DNA from: a virus
Reading direction: 5' to 3' (one strand)
IMG/VR virus record: IMGVR_UViG_3300025853_000260
Location: 1-37,587 of that record
Length of the DNA: 37,587 nucleotides
The notes under the pieces are model-generated. The model was not told the origin of the DNA and ran no database searches. It saw only the letters and a program-made list of their open reading frames with translations. A program made the translations under genes and the position numbers. Of the stretch, positions 8,129 through 25,595 are shown one piece after another. Within the stretch, counting starts at the first letter, position 1. The number at the start of each line of letters is the position of its first letter.

Positions 8129-11100
8129 ATGAAGGTAGAACATTTTAAGTTAGACTACAATCCAGTAGAGATTCCAGAGTTCGGGATGACTGATTATATG
8201 TTGGATGCCGTAAAAAGCATACCAGCCGGACTTGAAGACATGGCTCATGGTGTGTATAACTTAGGGGATTTTCTTTCGTTTGATGTGTTACCCGATTGGG
8301 ATGAAGAACGATTCTTTGAGAGACCTAAGACATTAGCGGGTGATTTAACAGCTGGATTAATACAATATGCTGTGCCTTTTGGTGTTATTGGTAAAGGGTT
8401 GAGTAAAGCAGGTAAACTAGCTAAAGGAGTAAAACCAGGTAAACTCTTAGATTTAAAACCGCAGGGATATTTAGCTGCGGATGTTGCTACTAATTTCATA
8501 GCGTTTGATGGGCAGCAAGAAAGATTATCTAACTTCTTAAAAGAGATAGACCAACCTGAGTTTACACAAGCCGTCACAGATTATTTAGCAGCTGATCCTG
8601 AAGATACTGAATTAGAAGGTAGACTGAAAAATGTATTAGAAGGTGCGATGATTGACGCTGGTGTTGGAGGTTTATTCAAGTTGTTCTCCACATCTCTTAA
8701 AGCCTCTAAAAGATTCACAAAAGAAATAGCGGATGGGGCAACCAAAGAAGATGCAGTAACCACGGCTATGATGCAGTACCAAGACGAAGCTAAGACTATC
8801 GATGCTTTTTCTGATTTAGATAAGTCTACTGCGGTTGAGGATGTTGGTTTTTCTGAGTTACCTGATTTAAGAGTAAGACTTGGAGCTAGTCCTGATTTAG
8901 TAGATGATTTTGATGAAGCTATAAGAATAATACCACCTCCATTTAAAACATACCCAGAAGCAGGTTTAGCTGAATTACAACCTAAAGGTGCTGGGGTATT
9001 AAAGAAAAGGCTTATTAAGAAGTTTGCTCTTGGAGGTGACATTGAAGGAGCTGAGGAAGTAGAGAAGTTTATAGATGTTCTAGGTGAGCGTATGTTTGGC
9101 GATGTTAAAATATCAGTAACAAACAAAATATCATCGGAAGGTAGATACAACTGGGGATCAAACATCATGCAGCTTCGTAAAGACATGGTGGAAAGAGGAG
9201 GATTAGAAAGAACAGCTATACACGAACTATGGCATAGTTTAAGTCGTTACTTACCGAAAACAGATTTAGATAAACTTACTAAAGAATTTAAAAAAGAAAG
9301 ACTGAAGTATATTAAAAGTTTTGGTGTAGAGTTAGACGAAGGGACGCAAGACTTATTAATGAGGTCTGATAGTTTAAAAGATTTACTTAAACTTCCCGAA
9401 AGACCTAAAGATTTACCTAAAGAACTAGACGACTTTTTATCAGGTAATCAGTTTACAGATAAGAACTATAGATTTTTAGATATAGACGAATACTTTGCTG
9501 AGTTAATGACTGATGAGTTTTTAGCTAGGTCTGGTAAAGGTGAGTTTGATAGAGCTACAGCTAGAGGTTTTAAACAAATTGCTAGAGATGTAGCTATAAT
9601 TTTAAAAGATTTGTTTGCTTCTTTACAGGCTAAGTTAGGCTTCAAACAACAACGTAAGATATTTAATGACTTTCTAGCTCAAAGAAATATTGTAAAACAA
9701 AGACAGTATAATTTAGATCAGAGGTTTAGATATTTACGCACAACTTCAGACCTTCCGGAATTAAAAGATACAATTAGTAAATTTGCTAAGGATGTTGATA
9801 CTTCTACTTTGAAGATAGGAGGTAGACAAGCTGTAAAAGGATTAGCTAAACAAACAGCTAAATTACCAGCAGGTTTACAAGTAGAAGGAGTAGCTCAGTT
9901 ACAGGATGTTATGGCTGACGAGTTACTTAAAGACGGTAGGAAAATGCAGGAACTAACTGATGAGCTTCTTGAAGAAGGGGCTATTATGGAGTTAGCTAAC
10001 TTACTAGGAGCAGATGGTAAATACCTAACAGGTTTAGTTGAAGCTGCTAGAAAAGATCAAACTACTTTGTTCCGTATAACTTCCAGGATGGCAGCTCTTA
10101 AAAAGTTAGCTTTAGAAAATGGAAAAGAAATAATAGACATAGCTAAGAACTACAAAAATAGCGGAGCGAAAATGATGCCTGAAGAGCGGGAAATTATGGA
10201 AGCCCGTTTAAAAGGTTTGTTTGAACAACAGTTACACATTCAAGCAGGTCATTCAGGATTGGCTAGTGGTTTCGGTAGGGGTTTAAAAAGCGTGAAGATG
10301 GGTACTAAAGTTACTCTAAGCGACGCAGAGATTAAGAACGCACAGCTCAGACAAGAATACCTCAGTAAGAGAGGCGGTCTAACGATGGACAAAATGGTAG
10401 AAGGTATATTGATTGCTGAACAAAATGGAGGTGATGATATATTTGCTGCTGTTATTGGGTTGAATAAACAAGTGCGTGGCACTGCTGGTGGTAAGATGTT
10501 AGACATGTTACAAGAGTACTACAAGAACTCACTGATGTGGGGACCTAGAACACTTACTACTAACTACCTAGGAACAGGATTAGCTCACTATCTTAAAAAC
10601 TTTGAAAGGTCTATAGGAGGTTGGATGAGTGCTGACCCAGCTGTAAAGCAAGCTACTGCTAATGCGTGGGGTTCTTCTATGAGTTTAGTAGAGCAAGTAA
10701 GTTTCTTTTTGAAAGCTTGGAAGACAGATGGTTCTCAATTTATAGGAGATGCAGGTTCCGCTTTTGTTGAGGGTACTGGTTCTAGTATCGGATCAATAAC
10801 AGGCAAGAATGTACAACAAGTATTAGGAACTGAGATTTCGGACGGTATTAAAGAAGCTATAGATTATGCAGGGAAATGGGTTAGATTACCTAATAGGTTT
10901 AATTTCTCGGTGGATCAAATGTGGAAGTCAAACCAATACAGAAGTAGAGCTTATGCACAGTTAACTTTAAAAGCTTACGACTTAGGTCTTAGGGAACCGC
11001 AAGAAATAGCTAAGTATATACATGACTCTTTTGAAGCTTTAGTAACTAGATCAAACAGAAACTTTTCAGAACAAGCTTTATTTAGGGAAGCTGATGAATT

Positions 11101-15629: not shown

Positions 15630-15863
15630 ATGGCAACTTTCAGTAAAAGAATACAGCTTAGAAACGATTCCGCTACGAACTGGAGCACAGCCAACCCTGT
15701 ACTTTTAGAGGGGGAAATAGGTATCGAGATCGACCCTGCACGCAACAGAATTAAGATAGGTGACGGGACGACTGCTTGGAACGATCTGCCTTACTTCCTT
15801 GACGCTCGTGAAGAAGAAGTAGGTGATTACCAGGATTTCCTTGACGGCTTAACTACACCCTAA
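15630..15863 (+). CDS. Fibre-associated protein with Mtd_N-like domain
   Basis: The product is 77 residues. Residues 6-55 follow the pattern IQLRNDSATNWSTANPVLLE, then GEIGIE and KIGDGTTAWNDLPY, typical of the N-terminal domain of phage major tropism determinant and related receptor-binding proteins. Here the domain stands almost alone with a short acidic tail. A role as a structural or trimerisation module near fibres is inferred. GGAGGAGCATAACAA precedes the ATG, giving a good ribosome-binding site. Confidence 0.7.
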   Translation: MATFSKRIQLRNDSATNWSTANPVLLEGEIGIEIDPARNRIKIGDGTTAWNDLPYFLDAREEEVGDYQDFLDGLTTP

Positions 15864-17386: not shown

Positions 17387-17644
17387 ATGCTAAGTCATAC
17401 CGAAGGAAGTAAACTGCACGACAAGATAGCTGGTGCGTATCGTAACTGTATTGATCTGATGGAAGCTGAGGGGGAGTACAACGCTGCACTACTAAACGGA
17501 GCTAGACAGTTCCTTAAGGATAACAATGTTGTTATGGACTCAGGAATGGGTACACCTCTACAAGCGTTAGCTGATGACTTAAAGACTTTACCTTTTGAAG
17601 AACAAGAAACACCAAGAGATACCACCCAAGCTACGGGACTTTAG
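17387..17644 (+). CDS. Terminase small subunit (T7 gp18-like)
   Basis: The product is 85 residues (T7 gp18 is 89). It is helical with GAYRNCIDLMEAEGEYNAAL and an acidic C-terminal half, directly upstream of the large terminase, as in T7. It would recognise the concatemer and regulate the large subunit. Its last 50 bases overlap the large-subunit gene in another frame. The leader contains AATACAGTAGGTAT before the ATG and no clear Shine-Dalgarno. Confidence 0.8.
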   Translation: MLSHTEGSKLHDKIAGAYRNCIDLMEAEGEYNAALLNGARQFLKDNNVVMDSGMGTPLQALADDLKTLPFEEQETPRDTTQATGL

Positions 17645-19286
17645 AAACTTCCTGTACCTGGTTTGGAAGCATCTAAATCTTCCTGACCCCACCGAGCTAC
17701 AATACGACATCGCTGAGTACCTGCAACACGGTCCAAAGCGGTCTGTTATCATGGCGTTCCGTGGGGTAGGTAAGAGCTGGATAACAAGTGCTTTTGTAGT
17801 ACATCAGCTGCTGCTGGACCCATCTAAGAACATACTTGTTGTATCAGCATCTAAGAATAGATCAGATGACTTTTCTACATTTACCTTGCGAATCATTCAA
17901 GAGATTCCCATTTTACAAGGATTAAAGCCATCAGAGAACCAACGATTCAGTAAGATAGCTTTCGATGTAGGACCTGCTCCAGCCTCTCACGCACCCTCTG
18001 TTAAGTCACTTGGTATATCATCTCAGCTAACAGGATCTCGTGCTGATATAATTGTAGCAGACGATGTCGAGGTAGCTAACAACAGTGCTACACAAGGAAT
18101 GAGAGATAAGCTGGATGAACAAGTAAAAGAGTTCGACGCTATCATTAAACCCTTGGACTCCTCCCGGATCATCTTTCTTGGTACTCCTCAATGTGAGGAC
18201 AGTATATACAACAAACTGCGAGAGAGGGGCTACAAGAGCCGTATATGGTCTTCAGAGTATCCGGATGATACTGAGGCTATAAACAACTACGGAGGCGATC
18301 TAGCACCCCTTATAGCGGATAACATAACTCCTGAGACAGTCGGTACTTCTACAGAACCCCTTAGGTTCACTGATCTAGACCTAGAGGAAAGAAAGATGTC
18401 GTACGGTCGTACCGGGTACGCTCTTCAGTTCATGCTTAATCCTAAGCTGAGTGATGCTGATAGATACCCATTAAAGATTAACGATCTGGTAGTGATGGAT
18501 GTAGATGTGGATGTAGCTCCGGAAAAGATCGTGTGGTCTAGTGACCCTGATAACTGTGATAGAGAGTTACCTAATGTAGGACTAGCGGGGGACAGGTACA
18601 GAAGACCTGCTAACACTGTTGGGGATATGATACCGTACACAGGCTCTGTCCTATCTATTGACCCGTCTGGTCGTGGTAAGGATGAAACAGGGTACGCTGT
18701 AGTAAAGATGTTAAACGGTCAGTTGTTTGTTCCGGATGCTGGTGGTATAAGAGGTGGTTACGATACCAAAACCCTACAACAACTCGTAGCTATCGCTAAA
18801 GATAACAAAGTTAATAAGGTAGTCATAGAGTCTAACTTTGGAGATGGTATGTTTATGGAGCTGATAAAGCCTCTGTTTAGAACAACATATCCTGTGACTA
18901 TAGAAGAAGTCAGACATAACAAACAGAAGGAGCTACGGATAGTAGATACCTTAGAACCTGTACTTAACTCTCATAGACTTATCGTTGATCCTACTGTTAT
19001 AAATAACGATTACAGGTCTGCTCTATCCTATCCTATTGAACAACAAACTAGGTACATGCTTATGTATCAGTTATCTAGGATAACAAGAGATAAAGGTAGC
19101 TTAGTACATGATGACCGTCTTGATGCTTTATCAATAGCTGTTGGTTATTGGGTGCAGCAAATGGCTGCTGATGTTAACCAATCTATGATTGATAGACAAC
19201 AAGAACTGCTGAATGAAGAACTAGATAGCTTTGTTAACAGCTTCCATAAGAATAATAACAAAACTTCTGCTCAACTGTGGATGTAG
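17595..19286 (+). CDS. Terminase large subunit (T7 gp19-like)
   Basis: The product is 563 residues (T7 gp19 is 586). It is the ATP-driven DNA packaging motor and nuclease. Walker A is AFRGVGKSW (about residues 54-62), Walker B DIIVADDVE (151-159), a coupling motif IFLGTPQ (193-199). The RNase H-like nuclease starts at SIDPSGRGKDETG (354-366), with further acidic residues in IESNFGDGMF and HDDRLDALS. The start is a TTG at 17595, chosen because KLRDFRNFLYLVWKHLNLP aligns with the T7 N-terminus and no ATG lies before Walker A. Confidence 0.93.
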   Translation: MKNKKHQEIPPKLRDFRNFLYLVWKHLNLPDPTELQYDIAEYLQHGPKRSVIMAFRGVGKSWITSAFVVHQLLLDPSKNILVVSASKNRSDDFSTFTLRIIQEIPILQGLKPSENQRFSKIAFDVGPAPASHAPSVKSLGISSQLTGSRADIIVADDVEVANNSATQGMRDKLDEQVKEFDAIIKPLDSSRIIFLGTPQCEDSIYNKLRERGYKSRIWSSEYPDDTEAINNYGGDLAPLIADNITPETVGTSTEPLRFTDLDLEERKMSYGRTGYALQFMLNPKLSDADRYPLKINDLVVMDVDVDVAPEKIVWSSDPDNCDRELPNVGLAGDRYRRPANTVGDMIPYTGSVLSIDPSGRGKDETGYAVVKMLNGQLFVPDAGGIRGGYDTKTLQQLVAIAKDNKVNKVVIESNFGDGMFMELIKPLFRTTYPVTIEEVRHNKQKELRIVDTLEPVLNSHRLIVDPTVINNDYRSALSYPIEQQTRYMLMYQLSRITRDKGSLVHDDRLDALSIAVGYWVQQMAADVNQSMIDRQQELLNEELDSFVNSFHKNNNKTSAQLWM

Positions 19287-19690
19287 TAGTAGGTGCTGTT
19301 GTAGTTAGTGTAAATACATATATAGGTTTATTTATAAACACACCTATCCTTAAAACGGAACCTTATAAAACAAGTATTAGTCACACCTTTAACTATTTAG
19401 CGAAAGAACGAAGTATGAGCTAAATCAGTAGCTGTAACTAATCTGTTAGAGCTGAAGCGTCTACTAAGTAATCTTTGTTAAAAGAAAGCTGTAGCAGTAG
19501 GCAGCTAATACGACTCTTAACCACTTGCTTGTACACTTGACCTATACATACAAATAATAACTTTAAAACTAACTCTAAAGTACTATCTTAATATCAATAT
19601 TATAACGATCTCAAACCGAAGGGACTTTGTAAAGCTTATTTTCTAGGACCCGCTTAAACACTGGTCAAAAATCTTGTTGTAGTTTAACCT
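19287..19690. other. Non-coding region after terminase; candidate genome end
   Basis: No convincing gene lies in these 404 bases. The region has the position of the T7 terminal repeat and left end. Near its start a bulged hairpin can form (ATAGG at 19322-19326 with CCTAT at 19343-19347, plus TTTA with TAAA inside). TAATACGACTC at 19506-19516 equals the recognition half of a T7 promoter, without the TATA/GGG half. I see no clear host-type -35/-10 pair. A terminal repeat cannot be proven in a single-copy map. Confidence 0.5.
19506..19516 (+). promoter_or_regulatory. T7 promoter-like 11-mer, probably incomplete
   Basis: TAATACGACTC is identical to positions -17 to -7 of the T7 RNAP consensus, but the following TTAACCAC does not match ACTATAGGG. 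The phage RNAP here differs from T7 at the specificity loop (for example Glu where T7 has Asn748), so use as a promoter is doubtful. Confidence 0.2.
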
Positions 19691-19945
19691 ATGAAAAATT
19701 CTCGTATAGCTGTATACTATAACAACATCATGAATATCAACGAACAAACAGACACCTTCCAGTACGAACTGGCAAAGCTTATATACCGATTCAAACGAGA
19801 GTACGATCTTAACGACTACACAATAGCCGGATGCCTGGACTTCGCTAAGCTGTCTGTACTAACTGAAACAGATGATGTTATCTTTGAAGGAGACTTTGAC
19901 GAGATTGTAGAGGACGAAGACGATAGCTTTGAGCCTCAGTTCTAG
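19691..19945 (+). CDS. Hypothetical early protein, 84 residues
   Basis: The product has a helical middle (FQYELAKLIYRFKREYDLND) and a strongly acidic C-terminus (DFDEIVEDEDDSFEPQF). An in-frame ATG at 19730 would give a 71-residue protein beginning MNINEQTDTF and may be the true start, as the first 13 residues look less structured. It stands alone between two non-coding stretches near the presumed genome end, where T7-like phages place early host-takeover genes. Function unknown. Confidence 0.6.
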   Translation: MKNSRIAVYYNNIMNINEQTDTFQYELAKLIYRFKREYDLNDYTIAGCLDFAKLSVLTETDDVIFEGDFDEIVEDEDDSFEPQF

Positions 19946-19993
19946 GAGAGTATATAGGACTTCCAAAAAGATTTGGTAGAAAAATCTGAGGGG

Positions 19994-20039
19994 CTTACGC
20001 TATATACGCGTGCGTTAATTACCCCCGCGTACCCGTAAG
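19994..20039 (+). other. Nested two-stem hairpin
   Basis: The outer stem is CTTACG (19994-19999) with CGTAAG (20034-20039). The inner stem is TACGCG (20005-20010) with CGCGTA (20026-20031), with a 15-base loop TGCGTTAATTACCCC. There is no T-run directly after it, so it is not an obvious terminator. A structured leader or a packaging or processing signal is possible. Confidence 0.6.
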
Positions 20040-20097
20040 TATTTTATAGGGCAGGGGTATATGATTCGCATAATACACATTATGTCTAATAGCTTTT

Positions 20098-20110
20098 GTT
20101 GATTATCAAC
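20098..20110. promoter_or_regulatory. Perfect 13-base inverted repeat, possible operator
   Basis: GTTGAT and ATCAAC flank a central T. ATCAAC recurs at 20165-20170 and 20198-20203. This symmetry suits a dimeric DNA-binding protein, but no regulator gene is evident in the window. Confidence 0.35.
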
Positions 20111-20251
20111 GATTTATGCAAACTAGATAGATTCTGAAGTAAACTGCATCAATTATCTTCGCAAATCAACAGAGATTGCTAGGCCTTTGCGTCACTAATC
20201 AACTGCTGTTATCTAGTGCAGTTAGTGTATTTGCATGAATTACTTGTATAT

Positions 20252-20384
20252 GTTCTTTTCGCTTTCAAAGTTCTAAGTTCAAATATAAATGAACTAAATG
20301 AACAGATTGAAACGCAACTTATGTAGTGATTAGGCTTTGTAATAACATCAATCAGTTGAACTTATACAAACATCATTTGAACTT
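20252..20384. promoter_or_regulatory. Cluster of GAAC/GTTC sites upstream of early operon
   Basis: Seven GAAC or GTTC words lie within 131 bases. TTGAACTT occurs directly repeated at 20356 and 20377 (21 bases apart, two helical turns) and inverted as AAGTTCAA at 20275. AAATGAAC is repeated at 20287 and 20296. They end just before the first early ATG at 20391. An operator or iteron-like array is inferred. Confidence 0.4.
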
Positions 20385-20390
20385 TTTTTG

Positions 20391-20781: not shown

Positions 20782-20940
20782 ATGAAAATTACCACCGAAA
20801 AATTACCTGACCGCCTTATTAATCTTGATGATTGTCAGATGCCTAAAGCTTCACAACGCCTCGAGAATTGTTTCATCGGGTGCTGTATCTGTGCTTCATC
20901 CGTTGCGTCTTGGCTTATGATCCTTTGGCTTGCAAACTAA
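20782..20940 (+). CDS. Small membrane protein, 52 residues
   Basis: A soluble N-terminal half (MKITTEKLPDRLINLDDCQM) is followed by a hydrophobic Cys-rich C-terminal segment (residues about 29-51, CFIGCCICASSVASWLMILW) that can span a membrane. The leader TTAATACAC precedes the ATG. It contains the first copy of the TTACCTGACC motif (20803-20812). An early membrane-targeting protein is plausible; function unknown. Confidence 0.5.
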   Translation: MKITTEKLPDRLINLDDCQMPKASQRLENCFIGCCICASSVASWLMILWLAN

Positions 20941-20962
20941 CCGACAAACATTACCTGACCAC

Positions 20963-21253
20963 ATGAAACTTAAATATCTACTTATTGGTGCAAACCATGA
21001 CCATGACGAAATCGTAAAAATCTTTAAAGCTGATGTCACAATGGATATTATCAATGAACATTTGAAATCTTACCTGTCCGAAATTGATTGTGCCATTGAT
21101 TGCTTACAGGATTTATCTGACCGCTTCCATGAGCTACAACAGGAACTAAAAGATGATGGATTCGATCATGAAACTTATGATGTTATTAAACATTACCTAA
21201 TGGAATATCGAGAAACTTTTGTGACTATTGAGGAAACCGAGTTATGTCAGTAA
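20963..21253 (+). CDS. Hypothetical early protein, 96 residues
   Basis: The product is acidic and helical (HDHDEIVKIFKADVTMDIIN, LSDRFHELQQELKDDGFDHE). An upstream TTG at 20930 would add 11 residues and overlap the preceding gene, but the ATG at 20963 is preferred. TTACCTGACC ends two bases before that ATG. The gene overlaps the next by 10 bases. Function unknown. Confidence 0.6.
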   Translation: MKLKYLLIGANHDHDEIVKIFKADVTMDIINEHLKSYLSEIDCAIDCLQDLSDRFHELQQELKDDGFDHETYDVIKHYLMEYRETFVTIEETELCQ

Positions 21254-21510
21254 GCTTTATCTACCAAAACCTAACCTTCTATTATCGTATCGATTCTCAC
21301 AGCTCCGCCATGGTATTTATCGCTTGGGGGTGTCGTGAGTTACCGATTTCTGGAGAAGCTCACAGCAAAGAGCACATGATGGAAGATATCAAAGGAAAAC
21401 TCAAACAGTATTACAGGAATAGGAAACCTAACGAATGCAAAGAATGCGGATTGACAAGCCAGAAGTTTGAAGCACAAGATACCTGCCCAGAATGTTTAAC
21501 CGATGAATAA
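21244..21510 (+). CDS. Hypothetical protein with C-terminal zinc ribbon
   Basis: The product is 88 residues. The C-terminal third has CKEC and CPEC pairs separated by 13 residues, a small zinc ribbon. The N-terminal part is beta-rich (FIYQNLTFYYRI, AMVFIAWGCREL). GAGGAAACCGAGTT precedes the ATG, which lies inside the upstream gene. Zinc ribbons suggest binding to nucleic acid or to a host protein; the exact role is unknown. Confidence 0.65.
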   Translation: MSVSFIYQNLTFYYRIDSHSSAMVFIAWGCRELPISGEAHSKEHMMEDIKGKLKQYYRNRKPNECKECGLTSQKFEAQDTCPECLTDE

Positions 21511-21682
21511 TAACTTAACCGACCCTTCTAAACTTGAAACGCTTGACGATATATCTATCCAGACTTTGATCGATCATTACTTAAAGCTACAGGAACAATT
21601 ACCTACCAGCTTACGTGTCCGTGATAGGCTCGTGGAGCTACAACAAGAACTACTAAATAGAACTACTACTACTAATGAATAA
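21503..21682 (+). CDS. Hypothetical protein, 59 residues
   Basis: The frame starts at an ATG overlapping the upstream gene's end by 8 bases and stops within the next gene's start (ATGAATAA). The product is helical and acidic (TLIDHYLKLQEQL, RDRLVELQQELL), with a Thr run at the end. Tight coupling on both sides supports it as a real gene. Function unknown. Confidence 0.55.
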   Translation: MNNNLTDPSKLETLDDISIQTLIDHYLKLQEQLPTSLRVRDRLVELQQELLNRTTTTNE

Positions 21683-21893
21683 AGAAAAATACTTAGTCGC
21701 TTATATCCTTAAAAATCCAAACAATGATCTAACTCGTAGACATCCTTTATTAAAGCAAAGTCTTGAGTTACAAGATTATTATATAACATACGACACACTA
21801 GAGGAAGCTGAAGAAGAATACGAAAACCTTAAACAATGGGACAAATGTTACTCGTGCAACATCTGCAAAGTAATTAAATCAACCGACTACTGA
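21675..21893 (+). CDS. Hypothetical protein, 72 residues
   Basis: The product has a YLVAYILKNPNNDL start, an acidic helix (DTLEEAEEEYENLKQWD) and a CYSCNIC cysteine cluster near the end. It overlaps the preceding gene by 8 bases. A function is not recognisable; a metal site at the C-terminus is possible. Confidence 0.55.
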   Translation: MNKEKYLVAYILKNPNNDLTRRHPLLKQSLELQDYYITYDTLEEAEEEYENLKQWDKCYSCNICKVIKSTDY

Positions 21894-21911
21894 GGCGTGA
21901 TAACATATCAA

Positions 21912-21983
21912 ATGAGTACCTTAACCTTTTTCTGCATCTGCTTTTTTATACTTGTCGGAATTGCAATCCTTTACCGAGACTAA
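21912..21983 (+). CDS. Tiny membrane peptide, 23 residues
   Basis: MSTLTFFCICFFILVGIAIL followed by YRD forms one hydrophobic membrane segment with a short charged end. ATG and TAA fit neatly between the neighbours (18 bases after one, 7 bases before the next). Such peptides are easily missed. It could also be chance, since it is very short. Confidence 0.35.
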   Translation: MSTLTFFCICFFILVGIAILYRD

Positions 21984-21990
21984 TAAACCT

Positions 21991-22155
21991 ATGAAAGAAC
22001 TATTACTACAACCCGCTGACATGATTGAAGAATTAATGTACCATATTATGTGGAATGAGTTTGACGGGGAGCTGAACCCAGATCATAAATACTTTCCACT
22101 TTACCTGTCCTTGCAACAGCTGTTGGAGGATGAAACACGGAGATTGGAAGAATGA
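21991..22155 (+). CDS. Hypothetical protein, 54 residues
   Basis: The product is acidic and helical (MKELLLQPADMIEELMYHIM, LQQLLEDETRRLEE). The ATG at 21991 is preferred to a TTG at 21952 that would overlap the upstream peptide. Its TGA overlaps the ATG of the HNH gene (ATGA), indicating coupling. Contains a TTACCTGTCC copy at 22101. Function unknown. Confidence 0.6.
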   Translation: MKELLLQPADMIEELMYHIMWNEFDGELNPDHKYFPLYLSLQQLLEDETRRLEE

Positions 22156-22787
22156 AAACAATAGAAGATTTTAAGCGTAACAAGTCAGGTCATAGAAGTT
22201 CAGGCAAGTTTCTAGATCAAGTAGCATTGTACACAGGAAATCCTCCTAAAACTTATAAGATGGGAGCTGCACACCCTTTCGTTCAAGGTTTAGTCTATAG
22301 AAATTGGGTTAGAGACAAGGAATTTTGGTGCACACCTGACAATCTTGAGGCTTATGTTGAGAGACAACGAAATTGGAAACAATCAAAAAGAGGTAAACAA
22401 AGTGCACATAAGTACAATACTTCAGCGAAGAAAAAAGAAGTGAATGCTAGATACAATAAAACAGATAAAAGCAAAAAATGCCAAACGAGATACAGAGACA
22501 CTGACTCTAGAAAAATTAGTAGTAGGCGTTATGCTAGCAGGCGAAGAGCTATCATCAAAGATTCCTTAAAGAGCCTGAGTGCAGAGGATGAACTTATTAT
22601 TAAACATTATTTTGATTGGAGTGTAAGATTGGAGAGTAAGTTAGGTGTAAAGTTTGAGGTGGATCATATAATACCACTAACATCAGGCGGTTACCACCAC
22701 CCACAAAATTTACAGATAGCACCTAGAGTTTGGAATAGAAGAAAAGGAAACAGAAACACTAACCGCTGGCTACCTAACGGACTATGA
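22152..22787 (+). CDS. HNH endonuclease, probably free-standing homing type
   Basis: The product is 211 residues. A basic, repeat-like middle (about 75-135) probably binds DNA. The HNH core is at residues 158-191: FEVDHIIPLTSGGYHH, then PQNLQIAPRVWNRRKGNR. Asp161-His162, His172/173 and the Asn residues fit the family. It overlaps both neighbours by 4 bases (ATGA), so it has been built into the operon. Its AGA-rich, AT-rich codons differ from those of the neighbours and suggest separate acquisition. It may cut competing phage genomes or promote its own spread. Confidence 0.85.
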   Translation: MKTIEDFKRNKSGHRSSGKFLDQVALYTGNPPKTYKMGAAHPFVQGLVYRNWVRDKEFWCTPDNLEAYVERQRNWKQSKRGKQSAHKYNTSAKKKEVNARYNKTDKSKKCQTRYRDTDSRKISSRRYASRRRAIIKDSLKSLSAEDELIIKHYFDWSVRLESKLGVKFEVDHIIPLTSGGYHHPQNLQIAPRVWNRRKGNRNTNRWLPNGL

Positions 22788-22975
22788 GACAATACGATTT
22801 ACCTAACTACGATGATTGGCTAACCGAACCTTACGATAGACTATATGAAGACATTGACCCTGGACTTGAAGAACATATTAATAACCTCCGTGAAATGGAT
22901 TATGAGGACGATCAAAGGGACTACTGCGAAGCGTACAAGCTCTCCTTCCTTGAAATCGAGCACCACCTCAAGTAG
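22784..22975 (+). CDS. Hypothetical acidic protein, 63 residues
   Basis: The product is very acidic and Tyr-rich (DLPNYDDWLTEPYDRLYEDI, REMDYEDDQRDYCEAY). The start overlaps the HNH stop. Small acidic proteins at this place in T7-like phages can mimic DNA (T7 0.3 Ocr is one), but nothing beyond charge supports that here. A competing frame at 22845-23045 is basic and looks like a shadow. Confidence 0.6.
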   Translation: MRQYDLPNYDDWLTEPYDRLYEDIDPGLEEHINNLREMDYEDDQRDYCEAYKLSFLEIEHHLK

Positions 22976-23034
22976 TGATTTATTCTGGGAGGCGGAGGCT
23001 GATATAATACGAACCGATTTACTTGACCGCAAAG

Positions 23035-23277
23035 ATGTACCCTGAAAGACACTTAGTACAAGGCACAGCTAGACATGATTTGGACTACAGCACGATAGAT
23101 CATAAAGCTATCAACGATGGGTTTCAACAGTTCTGGATGATGACAGAGATTTACGGGTTCGAGCGGAACAAAGACGGGACATACAAGCGAACCGAAGACG
23201 GGCGATTGATTGCTATTCGTTCCAATAAACCACGCATGAAACCGAAGGGAAACTTTGATTGGTTTGAGAATCTATGA
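23035..23277 (+). CDS. Hypothetical protein, 80 residues, upstream of RNAP
   Basis: The ATG at 23035 is preferred over a TTG at 23023. The product contains GFQQFWMMTEIYGFERNKDG and a basic C-terminal half (RSNKPRMKPKGNFDWFENL). Its TGA overlaps the RNAP ATG (ATGA), so the two are translationally coupled. A degenerate TTACTTGACC lies just before the start. Function unknown. Confidence 0.6.
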   Translation: MYPERHLVQGTARHDLDYSTIDHKAINDGFQQFWMMTEIYGFERNKDGTYKRTEDGRLIAIRSNKPRMKPKGNFDWFENL

Positions 23278-25595
23278 GTGGACATGTAGCTAAGATGAGG
23301 GAGTGGGGACGGACGCAGTATCGTAACCGACAAGCCAAGCTGAGACAGGAGGGAGAGAGTAGTCACACAGCATCGTGCAAGCGTATGTTACAAAGTATGT
23401 GTCCGAAGTTAGGGGACAGAGTGAAGCACATCATCGATCAGTTCTCTAGTCCGGGATACACAACACCACTTTACCTGACCTTCGTTATGGATATGTGTCC
23501 GTATGAGATAGCTGTTATTGCTTTGCGTACATTCCTTAATAACTTAGACAACCACTTAGCTATCGGGAAGATGGGTTATCGTATAGGTAAAGCATTTGAG
23601 AATGAAGCTCGGTGGAAGTATGCTTTGGAGAACCTGAGTCTGAATAAGCAGGACTTGTTAGCTATACCTGACCGTAAAAAACAGAGTAAGATCAAGCAGT
23701 TCTATAAGTATGAGGATGTCCGTTTTGAATTGTGGCATCACAAAGCTAAGGTGGGTTTAGGACTGTGGTTGTTAGAGGAGATCAGACAGCAGACTGGTCT
23801 CTTCAAAGTGGGGATGCGTGATAGTACGAGCAGTAAGATGCCGGAACGCTTTGTCTTACCTACCTCTGAGTTTAAAGATTGGATACATCGCTTTGATAAG
23901 TGGAAGGAAGCAGGGCAAGTATTTAAGATGGCATTACCTGACCGTCCAGTTGATTGGCATGGATTGATAGGTGGTGGATACGATATTGAACAGCTACCTG
24001 CACAGAAATTCTTCACGGGTAAACCTGTTGAGTGGTTTGAAGGAAATAACTACGACCACGTCATGTCTGCTGTTAACCGATTACAACAGGTGGAGTGGCA
24101 GATCAACACGGACATGTTAGATATTACGTTGAAGTGTTGGGAGAATGAACGAGTAGTAGGTAACATCCCACAATTTGGAGAGATCCCTGAGCAACCATAC
24201 TATACAGGTGGTGATGAGCAGGAGCTGAGTATCTGGAAGTTAAAGCAGAAAGATATTAAACAGACCAACGCTAGTAACAGCTCCAAAAGATTCCAAGCTT
24301 GTCGTATCCTACACCTCGCTAAGATGTACAGTAAGTGGGCAAAGATATACTTTCCGTATCGTTGTGATTACCGAGGTAGAGTGTACGCTATTCCGTACTA
24401 TCTACACCCACAAGGTTCTGACTTAGCTAAGAGTTTGTTGGACTTTAAGAATGGTCAACAAGTGGTGGATGAAGAGGACTTAGAAGCTGTACTTGTCCAC
24501 GGTGCTAACATGTGGGGAGTAAAAGGTACACGAGAGGAGAGACTGGAGTGGGTAGGTAAACGCAAGGACTTTATTCTTGAAGCAGCGAATGATCCACACG
24601 GTACAGATTGGTGGACAGATGCTAGTGATCCGTTCTGTTTCCTGCGGTTCTGTTTAGAGTTCAAGAAGTACACAGAGGAGGGGTACGGATATGTTAGTTA
24701 CTTACCTGTGCGTCAGGACTGTAGTAACAATGGTATGCAGATACTTAGTTTGTTATTACGGGACAAGGACACGGGCAGGATGTGTAACCTGGTGGAAGAA
24801 GACAAAGCTAATGATATGTATCAATATGTAGCAGATCGTATACACGATGAGTTAGTTAAGGATGGTGGTGTTATTGCTAAGACTTGGATGCAGTACGGTA
24901 TCAAAAGAAAGATAGCTAAGATGGCAGTGATGAACCGTCCGTACGGTGCTACCAGTTACAACTTAGTACAGGATTTATTTAAGAGTATAGGAATCAATCA
25001 TCCGTGGAGTAGTACAGGTGAGATGTTAACTGCTGTCATCTGGATAAGTAATATCATTAACAAGATAGCAGATGAGGTATGTGAACCAGTAAAGAAAGTA
25101 ATGAAGTATTTACGGGAGACTATCCGATGCTTACCTTACGAGAACGGTATTACTTGGACTACACCTACAGGATTCAAAGTTAAGCAGAGCTTTCGTAAGT
25201 ACAAGAAGGTAGATTTAGAATCTGTATTTGATAACACTACTGTATATGTGCGTACCCACACTGAGTCAGATGAGATAGATACCAAGCACCACGGCAACGC
25301 AGTCACTGCTAACTTTATCCACAGTCTTGACGCTTGTATTGTACATCAAGTAGCGAATCAAGTTGACTTTGACTTAGCTACCATACATGACTGCTTTGTG
25401 ACACACGCTTGTAATGTACGAAAATGTAATACGATTGTACGACAAATGTACCATAAGACTTTTTCTGTTGATCTCTTGACTGAGTTCCGAATGGAGCAAA
25501 TCAACAACAACCCGACCGCAGAACTTCCATCCGTGCCGGAACTTGGTGACTTAGATGTTACCGCAGTAAAGCGTATGAAGTATCTGTTGTCTTAA
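23274..25595 (+). CDS. Single-subunit DNA-directed RNA polymerase (T7 gp1-like)
   Basis: The product is 773 residues, about 110 shorter than T7 RNAP (883), mainly in the N-terminal promoter-binding half. It would transcribe middle and late genes. DYRGRVY lies at 365-371, QDCSNNGMQ at 481-489 (catalytic Asp482 = T7 D537), KRKIAKMAVMNRPYG at 544-558 (Arg545, Lys549, Tyr557 = T7 R627, K631, Y639), FIHSLDA at 681-687 and IHDCF at 704-708 (His705, Asp706 = H811, D812). The specificity loop region (about 640-665) differs from T7, so promoters should differ. Confidence 0.97.
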   Translation: MSGHVAKMREWGRTQYRNRQAKLRQEGESSHTASCKRMLQSMCPKLGDRVKHIIDQFSSPGYTTPLYLTFVMDMCPYEIAVIALRTFLNNLDNHLAIGKMGYRIGKAFENEARWKYALENLSLNKQDLLAIPDRKKQSKIKQFYKYEDVRFELWHHKAKVGLGLWLLEEIRQQTGLFKVGMRDSTSSKMPERFVLPTSEFKDWIHRFDKWKEAGQVFKMALPDRPVDWHGLIGGGYDIEQLPAQKFFTGKPVEWFEGNNYDHVMSAVNRLQQVEWQINTDMLDITLKCWENERVVGNIPQFGEIPEQPYYTGGDEQELSIWKLKQKDIKQTNASNSSKRFQACRILHLAKMYSKWAKIYFPYRCDYRGRVYAIPYYLHPQGSDLAKSLLDFKNGQQVVDEEDLEAVLVHGANMWGVKGTREERLEWVGKRKDFILEAANDPHGTDWWTDASDPFCFLRFCLEFKKYTEEGYGYVSYLPVRQDCSNNGMQILSLLLRDKDTGRMCNLVEEDKANDMYQYVADRIHDELVKDGGVIAKTWMQYGIKRKIAKMAVMNRPYGATSYNLVQDLFKSIGINHPWSSTGEMLTAVIWISNIINKIADEVCEPVKKVMKYLRETIRCLPYENGITWTTPTGFKVKQSFRKYKKVDLESVFDNTTVYVRTHTESDEIDTKHHGNAVTANFIHSLDACIVHQVANQVDFDLATIHDCFVTHACNVRKCNTIVRQMYHKTFSVDLLTEFRMEQINNNPTAELPSVPELGDLDVTAVKRMKYLLS

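Follow-up and report, generated by a model that had tools for sequence, protein, structure and literature searches.

The window analysed here is the whole of a 37.6-kb virus record (IMG/VR IMGVR_UViG_3300025853_000260; 37,587 nucleotides), a circularly permuted genome of a T7-like phage. It encodes, in order, capsid and tail proteins, terminase, a series of small variable genes, a single-subunit phage RNA polymerase (RNAP), single-stranded DNA-binding protein, endonuclease, primase, DNA polymerase, exonuclease and portal. The gene of the terminase large subunit (DNA maturase B; 17595–19286, plus strand) forms the right-hand end of the late region, and the RNAP gene (23274–25595, plus strand) is the last gene of the early block, which by analogy with T7-like organization is presumably transcribed by the host polymerase. 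Two short words are dispersed over this block on the coding strand, the long word TTACCTGWCC (W being A or T) and the hexamer AACCGA. Both were enriched, strand-specific and independent of position; AACCGA was avoided in late genes, and the spelling of the long word was linked to the RNAP clade. The phage belongs to a large set of uncultured T7-like phages of marine and estuarine origin, and its RNAP is only ∼30% identical to those of the nearest named phages, mostly pelagiphages.

A first-pass annotation of the window had described TTACCTGWCC as a repeat of seven close copies on one strand of the early block. The repeat was borne out, with six exact copies between positions 20803 and 23943, all on the plus strand and none on the minus strand. 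The first of them (TTACCTGACC, 20803–20812) is located at the start of the block in a 52-amino acid open reading frame (LPDR frame) and is the first TACCTGWCC past the terminase. The second (TTACCTGACC, 20951–20960) is intergenic, 2 nucleotides ahead of the ATG at 20963; a TAACCGA lies 13 nucleotides upstream of it, which gives a junction cassette of stop codon, word, word and start codon. Two copies of TTACCTGTCC (21070–21079 and 22101–22110) are coding in the YLS frame. The remaining exact copies, both TTACCTGACC, are found in the RNAP gene at 23471–23480 (codon ∼67, YLT) and 23934–23943 (codon ∼221, LPDR). The supposed seventh copy, ATACCTGACC at 23664–23673 on the plus strand of the RNAP gene, carries one mismatch, which falls outside the 9-mer core TACCTGACC. 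Further one-mismatch copies in the block start at 21113, 21611 and 23019, and that at 21611–21620 (TTACGTGTCC, plus strand) has the spelling favored in the second RNAP clade described below. Because one-mismatch copies also exist outside the block, at 9528, 13189, 18590 and 33328 on the minus strand and at 24702 and 29056 on the plus strand, the statement that the motif occurs nowhere else on either strand is true for exact copies only. A 17-base context shared with one mismatch was confirmed at 22096 and 23466.

The chance expectation was well under one copy, as had been proposed. Markov models predicted 0.03–0.09 copies of TTACCTGACC and ∼0.02 copies of TTACCTGTCC on the whole plus strand, where 4 and 2 were seen. 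In codon-preserving shuffles of the early genes of the window, the expected number of TTACCTGWCC was 0.10 compared with 5 seen, and none of 2000 shuffles reached 5, so that the motif density in shuffled genes was far from equal to the real one; 2 of the 11 segments (20784 and 20964) entered these shuffles out of frame, which leaves the copies in the RNAP gene unaffected.

The picture of a single word was correct as far as it went, but AACCGA, its avoidance in late genes and the link to the RNAP clade had been overlooked. AACCGA is the stronger of the two words and is co-located with the long word. Twelve copies were listed for the early block, all on the plus strand and including a lone copy ahead of the block at 19614–19619. 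The others are located at 20939–20944, where TAACCGA overlaps a stop codon, at 21235–21240, at 21498–21503 and 21517–21522 (both TTAACCGA), and at 21881–21886, 22822–22827 (CTAACCGA), 23012–23017, 23190–23195 and 23240–23245, with two more in the RNAP gene at 23325–23330 and 24075–24080. The copy at 23325 covers codons 18–19 of the RNAP gene (AAC CGA) and marks its most synonymously conserved spot: among all four-codon windows the strongest synonymous conservation was obtained for CGT AAC CGA CAA (codons 17–20), which contains TAACCGA.

The distribution of both words was investigated in relatives. A search with the RNAP yielded 80 loci with 68–100% identity (clade 1). TTACCTGWCC was present on the plus strand in all but one of them and never on the minus strand; its copies lie at differing positions of the early block and of the initial part of the RNAP gene. 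In the 45 relatives with full-length early blocks, the mean was 4.8 copies on the plus strand and 0 on the minus strand. Unbiased k-mer counts over the 80 loci recovered TACCTGWCC and, more strongly, AACCGA, which occurred 2–17 times per locus on the plus strand (mean 10.6) and almost never on the minus strand. Counted by unrelated contexts, AACCGA was found 78 times on the plus and 6 times on the minus strand in these k-mer counts, and a directionality test gave 386 versus 6 contexts, with 0 copies of TACCTGWCC on the minus strand of early blocks. Among all hexamers AACCGA ranked first for the combined early/late and strand contrast in both clades, which were tested separately (∼3,950 hexamers in clade 1 and 3,879 in clade 2). 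Its single-base variants had at most a modest strand bias and no comparable enrichment. The words carried little or no information in their flanks, and AACCGA none. In the long word the sole loose position was the central A/T (174:177, with C in 8 and G in 1); since A and T are equally free there and C and G rare, recognition in duplex DNA fits better than recognition in RNA.

When the loci were aligned on the RNAP start, both words rose ∼2.5–3 kb upstream, continued into the RNAP gene and were gone after it. Aligned on the end of the terminase gene, the words started mostly 1.5–3 kb downstream. The first-pass annotation had correctly noted the use of two reading frames; in the relatives all three frames and intergenic DNA are used at similar density, and most sites are coding. 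The density in the block was ∼2.0/kb in coding and 2.2/kb in non-coding DNA for AACCGA, and 0.6/kb and 0.9/kb for the long word. Twenty-three of the 42 intergenic TACCTGWCC sites are located 0–10 nucleotides ahead of a predicted start, in a recurring junction cassette of stop codon, AACCTTACCTGACC, 0–9 nucleotides and ATG, where TAACCGA sometimes overlaps the stop codon. In 11 loci (6 distinct sequences) the block opens with TTTGACAGCTTACCTGTCCG, ∼60 nucleotides past a terminator-like hairpin. Six loci (L057, L074, L076, L134, L141 and L230) have a conserved TTTGACAG-CTTAC-CTGTCCG dyad past the terminator-like hairpin at the block start, with a second TTACCTGTCCG ∼40–50 nucleotides downstream of the dyad. 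No enrichment of AACCGA or TACCTGWCC was detected in pelagiphages, roseophages or T7, and a literature search on the words found nothing relevant.

Codon-preserving shuffles were also applied to the relatives. In nucleotides 1–1500 of the RNAP gene, AACCGA was seen 162 times with 32 expected, which placed it second in enrichment among 2,368 words. In the late genes, its coding-strand count was 3 with 65.7 expected (rank 23 among 3,498 words, counted from the most depleted), whereas its complement TCGGTT was less depleted (14 seen, 44 expected). Because the sequences are related, such ratios overstate the significance, and a word's rank is more reliable than its ratio. For TACCTGWCC in the terminase gene, 0 copies were seen with only 4.0 expected. 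The neighbors of AACCGA in the late-gene depletion ranking were palindromes such as GAATTC and CTGCAG. As a separate observation, the late genes of the window relatives strongly avoid restriction-type palindromes (GAATTC, 0 seen versus 70 expected; CTGCAG, 2 versus 106), and words containing GCGC are near zero in them.

To this extent the earlier judgment that protein conservation is not the whole cause was upheld: the words occupy all frames as well as intergenic DNA, the codon shuffles were exceeded, and TAACCGA is synonymously conserved at RNAP codons 17–20. Close relatives with a conserved protein did not turn out to have lost the motif. At the aligned codon, the word was present in 23 of 70 RNAPs for the site at codon ∼67 and in 44 of 70 for that at codon ∼221, and the core TACCTGACC of the 23664 copy in 22 of 70. 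The motif thus persists in close relatives, but it is lost in a diverged RNAP clade.

This second clade comprises 60 loci with RNAPs 43–46% identical to that of the window. TACCTGWCC occurred 4.82 times per early block in clade 1 and 0.34 times in clade 2, whereas TACGTGWCC occurred 0.53 and 2.48 times; both spellings were absent from the minus strand in both clades. In clade 2, TACGTGWCC was top among all one- and two-substitution variants, and in the single locus L281 it heads the 9-mer list. AACCGA was the same word in both clades, with 16.6 plus-strand copies per block in clade 2. The positions of clade 1 words have other sequence in clade 2 with the protein kept, and no individual word sites conserved across the clades were found. 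In a comparison of the window with L230, which has the same word, and with L255/L159, which have the other word, the primase (∼80%), DNA polymerase (67–72%) and terminase (86–88%) were about equally diverged, but RNAP identity was 68% within the clade and 43–48% between clades. The spelling therefore goes with the RNAP rather than with the genes for replication or packaging. L242 has the same backbone with an unrelated type of RNAP (32% identity), and neither word was enriched in it; AACCAA was over-represented in its early block (14 plus, 3 minus), a hint from a single genome. A search for further examples of this third type with the L242 RNAP returned only itself, and a profile search returned only clade 1.

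Words that are exact, directional and independent of position, and that are favored early and either avoided (AACCGA) or absent (long word) late, call for a reader whose action at the word is beneficial in early genes but damaging in late ones. The pattern suggests that the early words are signals separating the two phases of infection, in line with the first-pass proposal of a regulatory recognition site. The reading that we favor, at a probability of roughly 40%, is that TTACCTGWCC (TACGTGWCC in clade 2) acts as a pause or termination word for the phage's own single-subunit RNAP, similar to the class II signal of T7. We infer the RNAP as the reader and pausing or termination as the effect, because pausing of the phage RNAP would directly explain both the early/late split and a spelling that follows the RNAP. 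The early block would carry dispersed, directional words, exact in sequence and recognized on the nontemplate (coding) strand; they would be placed in genes intended for the host polymerase, and genes read by the phage polymerase would lack or avoid them. A phage polymerase entering the block, whether it started at a late promoter and crossed the joined genome ends or started at some left-end promoter, would be stopped or slowed at the words, and as a result the early genes, including the RNAP gene itself, would be switched off after the early phase. AACCGA would serve the same partition, but it is unchanged between the RNAP clades and may have a different reader. More tentatively, a lytic phage might mark a whole temporal class of genes in this way, with many polymerase-specific stop or pause words on the coding strand of the genes that only the host polymerase should read, purged from all other genes and co-evolving in spelling with the phage polymerase.

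Class II signals have the core ATCTGTT and act as duplex, with a crucial nontemplate strand (PMC11617373). Like the T7 signal, which is known from the concatemer junction, PTH and rrnB T1, the words described here are short, directional and on the nontemplate strand in a phage RNAP context, with a similar spelling (TAT/CCTGT/W). ATCTGTT was found exactly once on the plus strand of T7, T3, YeO3-12, 13a, K11, KP32 and SP6, at position 158–239 near the left terminal repeat, and 0–4 times on the minus strand; the records of 13a and K11 annotate the spot as the concatemeric junction. The phage gh-1 has imperfect copies at its left end and its single plus-strand copy elsewhere, at 15814. In the seven T7-like phages listed first, ATCTGTT is kept off the plus strand except at the left end, and AACCGA is likewise kept out of the late genes here.

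Several points count against the proposed pausing of the phage RNAP. The T7 class II signal is present in one copy per genome, whereas 5–8 long words and ∼12 AACCGA are present here, spread through a coding block of 3–5 kb and including a second, unrelated word. AACCGA is unlike any known pause word, and as it is common to RNAPs only 43–46% identical, a single polymerase reading both words is awkward. No T run was found downstream of the window sites; a U-run is needed for class II termination, so the words would at best pause the polymerase. The class II core is not matched by TACCTGWCC, and ATCTGTT itself was not enriched in the early block (51 plus, 43 minus). Compared by eye, TACCTGW matches the T7 sequence TATCTGT at all but one position, a likeness that may be due to chance. 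Finally, the RNAP link is one contrast between two clades, together with one genome (L242), so that the actual reader could also be a small gene linked to the RNAP.

Sites of the stoperator type offer another explanation, in which a phage DNA-binding protein would occupy asymmetric operators distributed over the early block in the orientation of transcription and block elongation as well as initiation at the block start. L5-type repressor sites are asymmetric 13-mers with >20 copies per genome, located at promoters and in short intergenic spaces, oriented with transcription and without function when reversed (PMC9283540, PMC6550527). Like the sites of L5 and cluster A phages, those of the early blocks are asymmetric and share one orientation with transcription; a block has ∼5 long words, or ∼15–17 copies of both words together. 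They often occupy short intergenic spaces next to start and stop codons, and some are found where an early transcription unit begins. The junction cassettes ahead of starts, the TTTGACAGCTTACCTGTCCG openings of the 11 loci and the freedom between A and T at one position, which fits duplex DNA, argue in the same direction. However, the words are confined to the early block of phages that look strictly lytic and are mostly coding. Late avoidance of AACCGA would be needless if the blocker acted on the host polymerase, and the spelling of the long word follows the RNAP clade. A PHROGs and Pfam scan of 16 window proteins (small and unassigned ones, a set in which small proteins of unknown function remain) detected no helix-turn-helix or repressor protein, including the two-domain helix-turn-helix immunity repressor, and we regard this explanation as doubtful. 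Silencing at the RNA level is unlikely in our view; here an endoribonuclease or RNA-binding protein, encoded by the phage or recruited from the host, would read the words on early transcripts and remove these, while late genes escape by avoiding the words. A similar early/late logic is reported for T4 RegB and early T4 mRNA (PMC3014915), and the words agree with it in being strand-specific, independent of position, enriched in early genes and avoided in late ones. A word marks early and not late messages in both cases, and AACCGA is a crisp hexamer without flank preference. But RegB sites (GGAG) are located mainly in translation initiation regions, whereas here two words of 6 and 10 nucleotides are found everywhere. 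AACCGA sites were no more unpaired than letter-permuted controls (0.593 versus 0.574, p = 0.41), equal use of A and T at the center of the long word would be unusual if it were read in RNA, and the RNAP-clade link would be left unexplained. No protein of RegB, RelE or MazF type (RelE/YoeB fold) was detected among the window proteins scanned with PHROGs and Pfam, a search that remote homologues could escape.

Yeast mitochondrial RNAP is served by a nonanucleotide promoter, and TTACCTGWCC might similarly be a short promoter for the phage RNAP, upstream of late genes. The change of spelling with the RNAP clade fits this, as does the lack of any longer repeated promoter among the repeated 18-mers of the window; yet no conserved melting or initiation region follows the sites, which are found mid-gene and at none of the late gene clusters, and both AACCGA and its late avoidance would be unexplained, which makes a promoter improbable. 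A Chi-like or genome-entry signal on DNA entering left end first would account for polar, exact short words near that end. Chi-like end protection was rejected, as there are few words in the first 1.5–3 kb past the terminase, and the entry signal is very improbable given also two unrelated words, late avoidance on the coding strand and a spelling tied to the RNAP clade. Coding bias, paralogous small genes or a spreading repeat have next to no chance of being the cause and were refuted at the level of the tests run. Some small early genes do share peptides (LPDR, DRxxELQQEL) able to encode the long word, and the further word TGTCCGTGA may be mostly of paralogous or coding origin. Chance and codon bias are nevertheless ruled out by the codon shuffles, the strand control, the single-base variants and the unrelated AACCGA contexts (78 versus 6), and protein conservation as the cause by words in all frames and intergenic DNA at equal density. 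The plain spreading repeat, considered at first pass, is disfavored because the flanks carry little or no information and late genes avoid AACCGA.

In T7-like phages, restraint of the processive phage polymerase on early genes is usually credited to single terminators and inhibitors of the host polymerase. If pausing of the phage RNAP at these words is correct, a dense, directional word code within coding sequence would add a new level to temporal control, account for synonymous constraint in phage genes and provide sequence-specific pause signals for new single-subunit polymerases. The pattern extends over two RNAP clades and >100 contigs and is hence testable.

Other features of the window were examined as well. 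No known RNA families or tRNAs were found in it, no repeated phage promoters stood out in the search for repeated 18-mers, and no consistent sigma-70 promoter candidate was detected upstream of the early block. Genome contigs scanned with the RNAP for a host gave only a weak, uninformative Prevotella match (27% identity). A Shine-Dalgarno sequence is missing at most gene starts, which could be relevant to the host. The sequence TAATACGACTC, identical to the initial 11 bases of the T7 promoter, occurs in exactly one copy, at 19506–19516 between the terminase gene and the early block. A 440-nucleotide non-coding stretch with a GC-rich inverted region (TACGCTATATACGCGTGCG) precedes the early genes at 19945–20388 and is possibly a genome end region. 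The third plus-strand word enriched in the early blocks of relatives, TGTCCGTGA, has its window copy at 21616; it often overlaps the long word (TTACCTGTCCGTGA or TACGTGTCCGTG) and is partly carried by a conserved gene of 59 amino acids.

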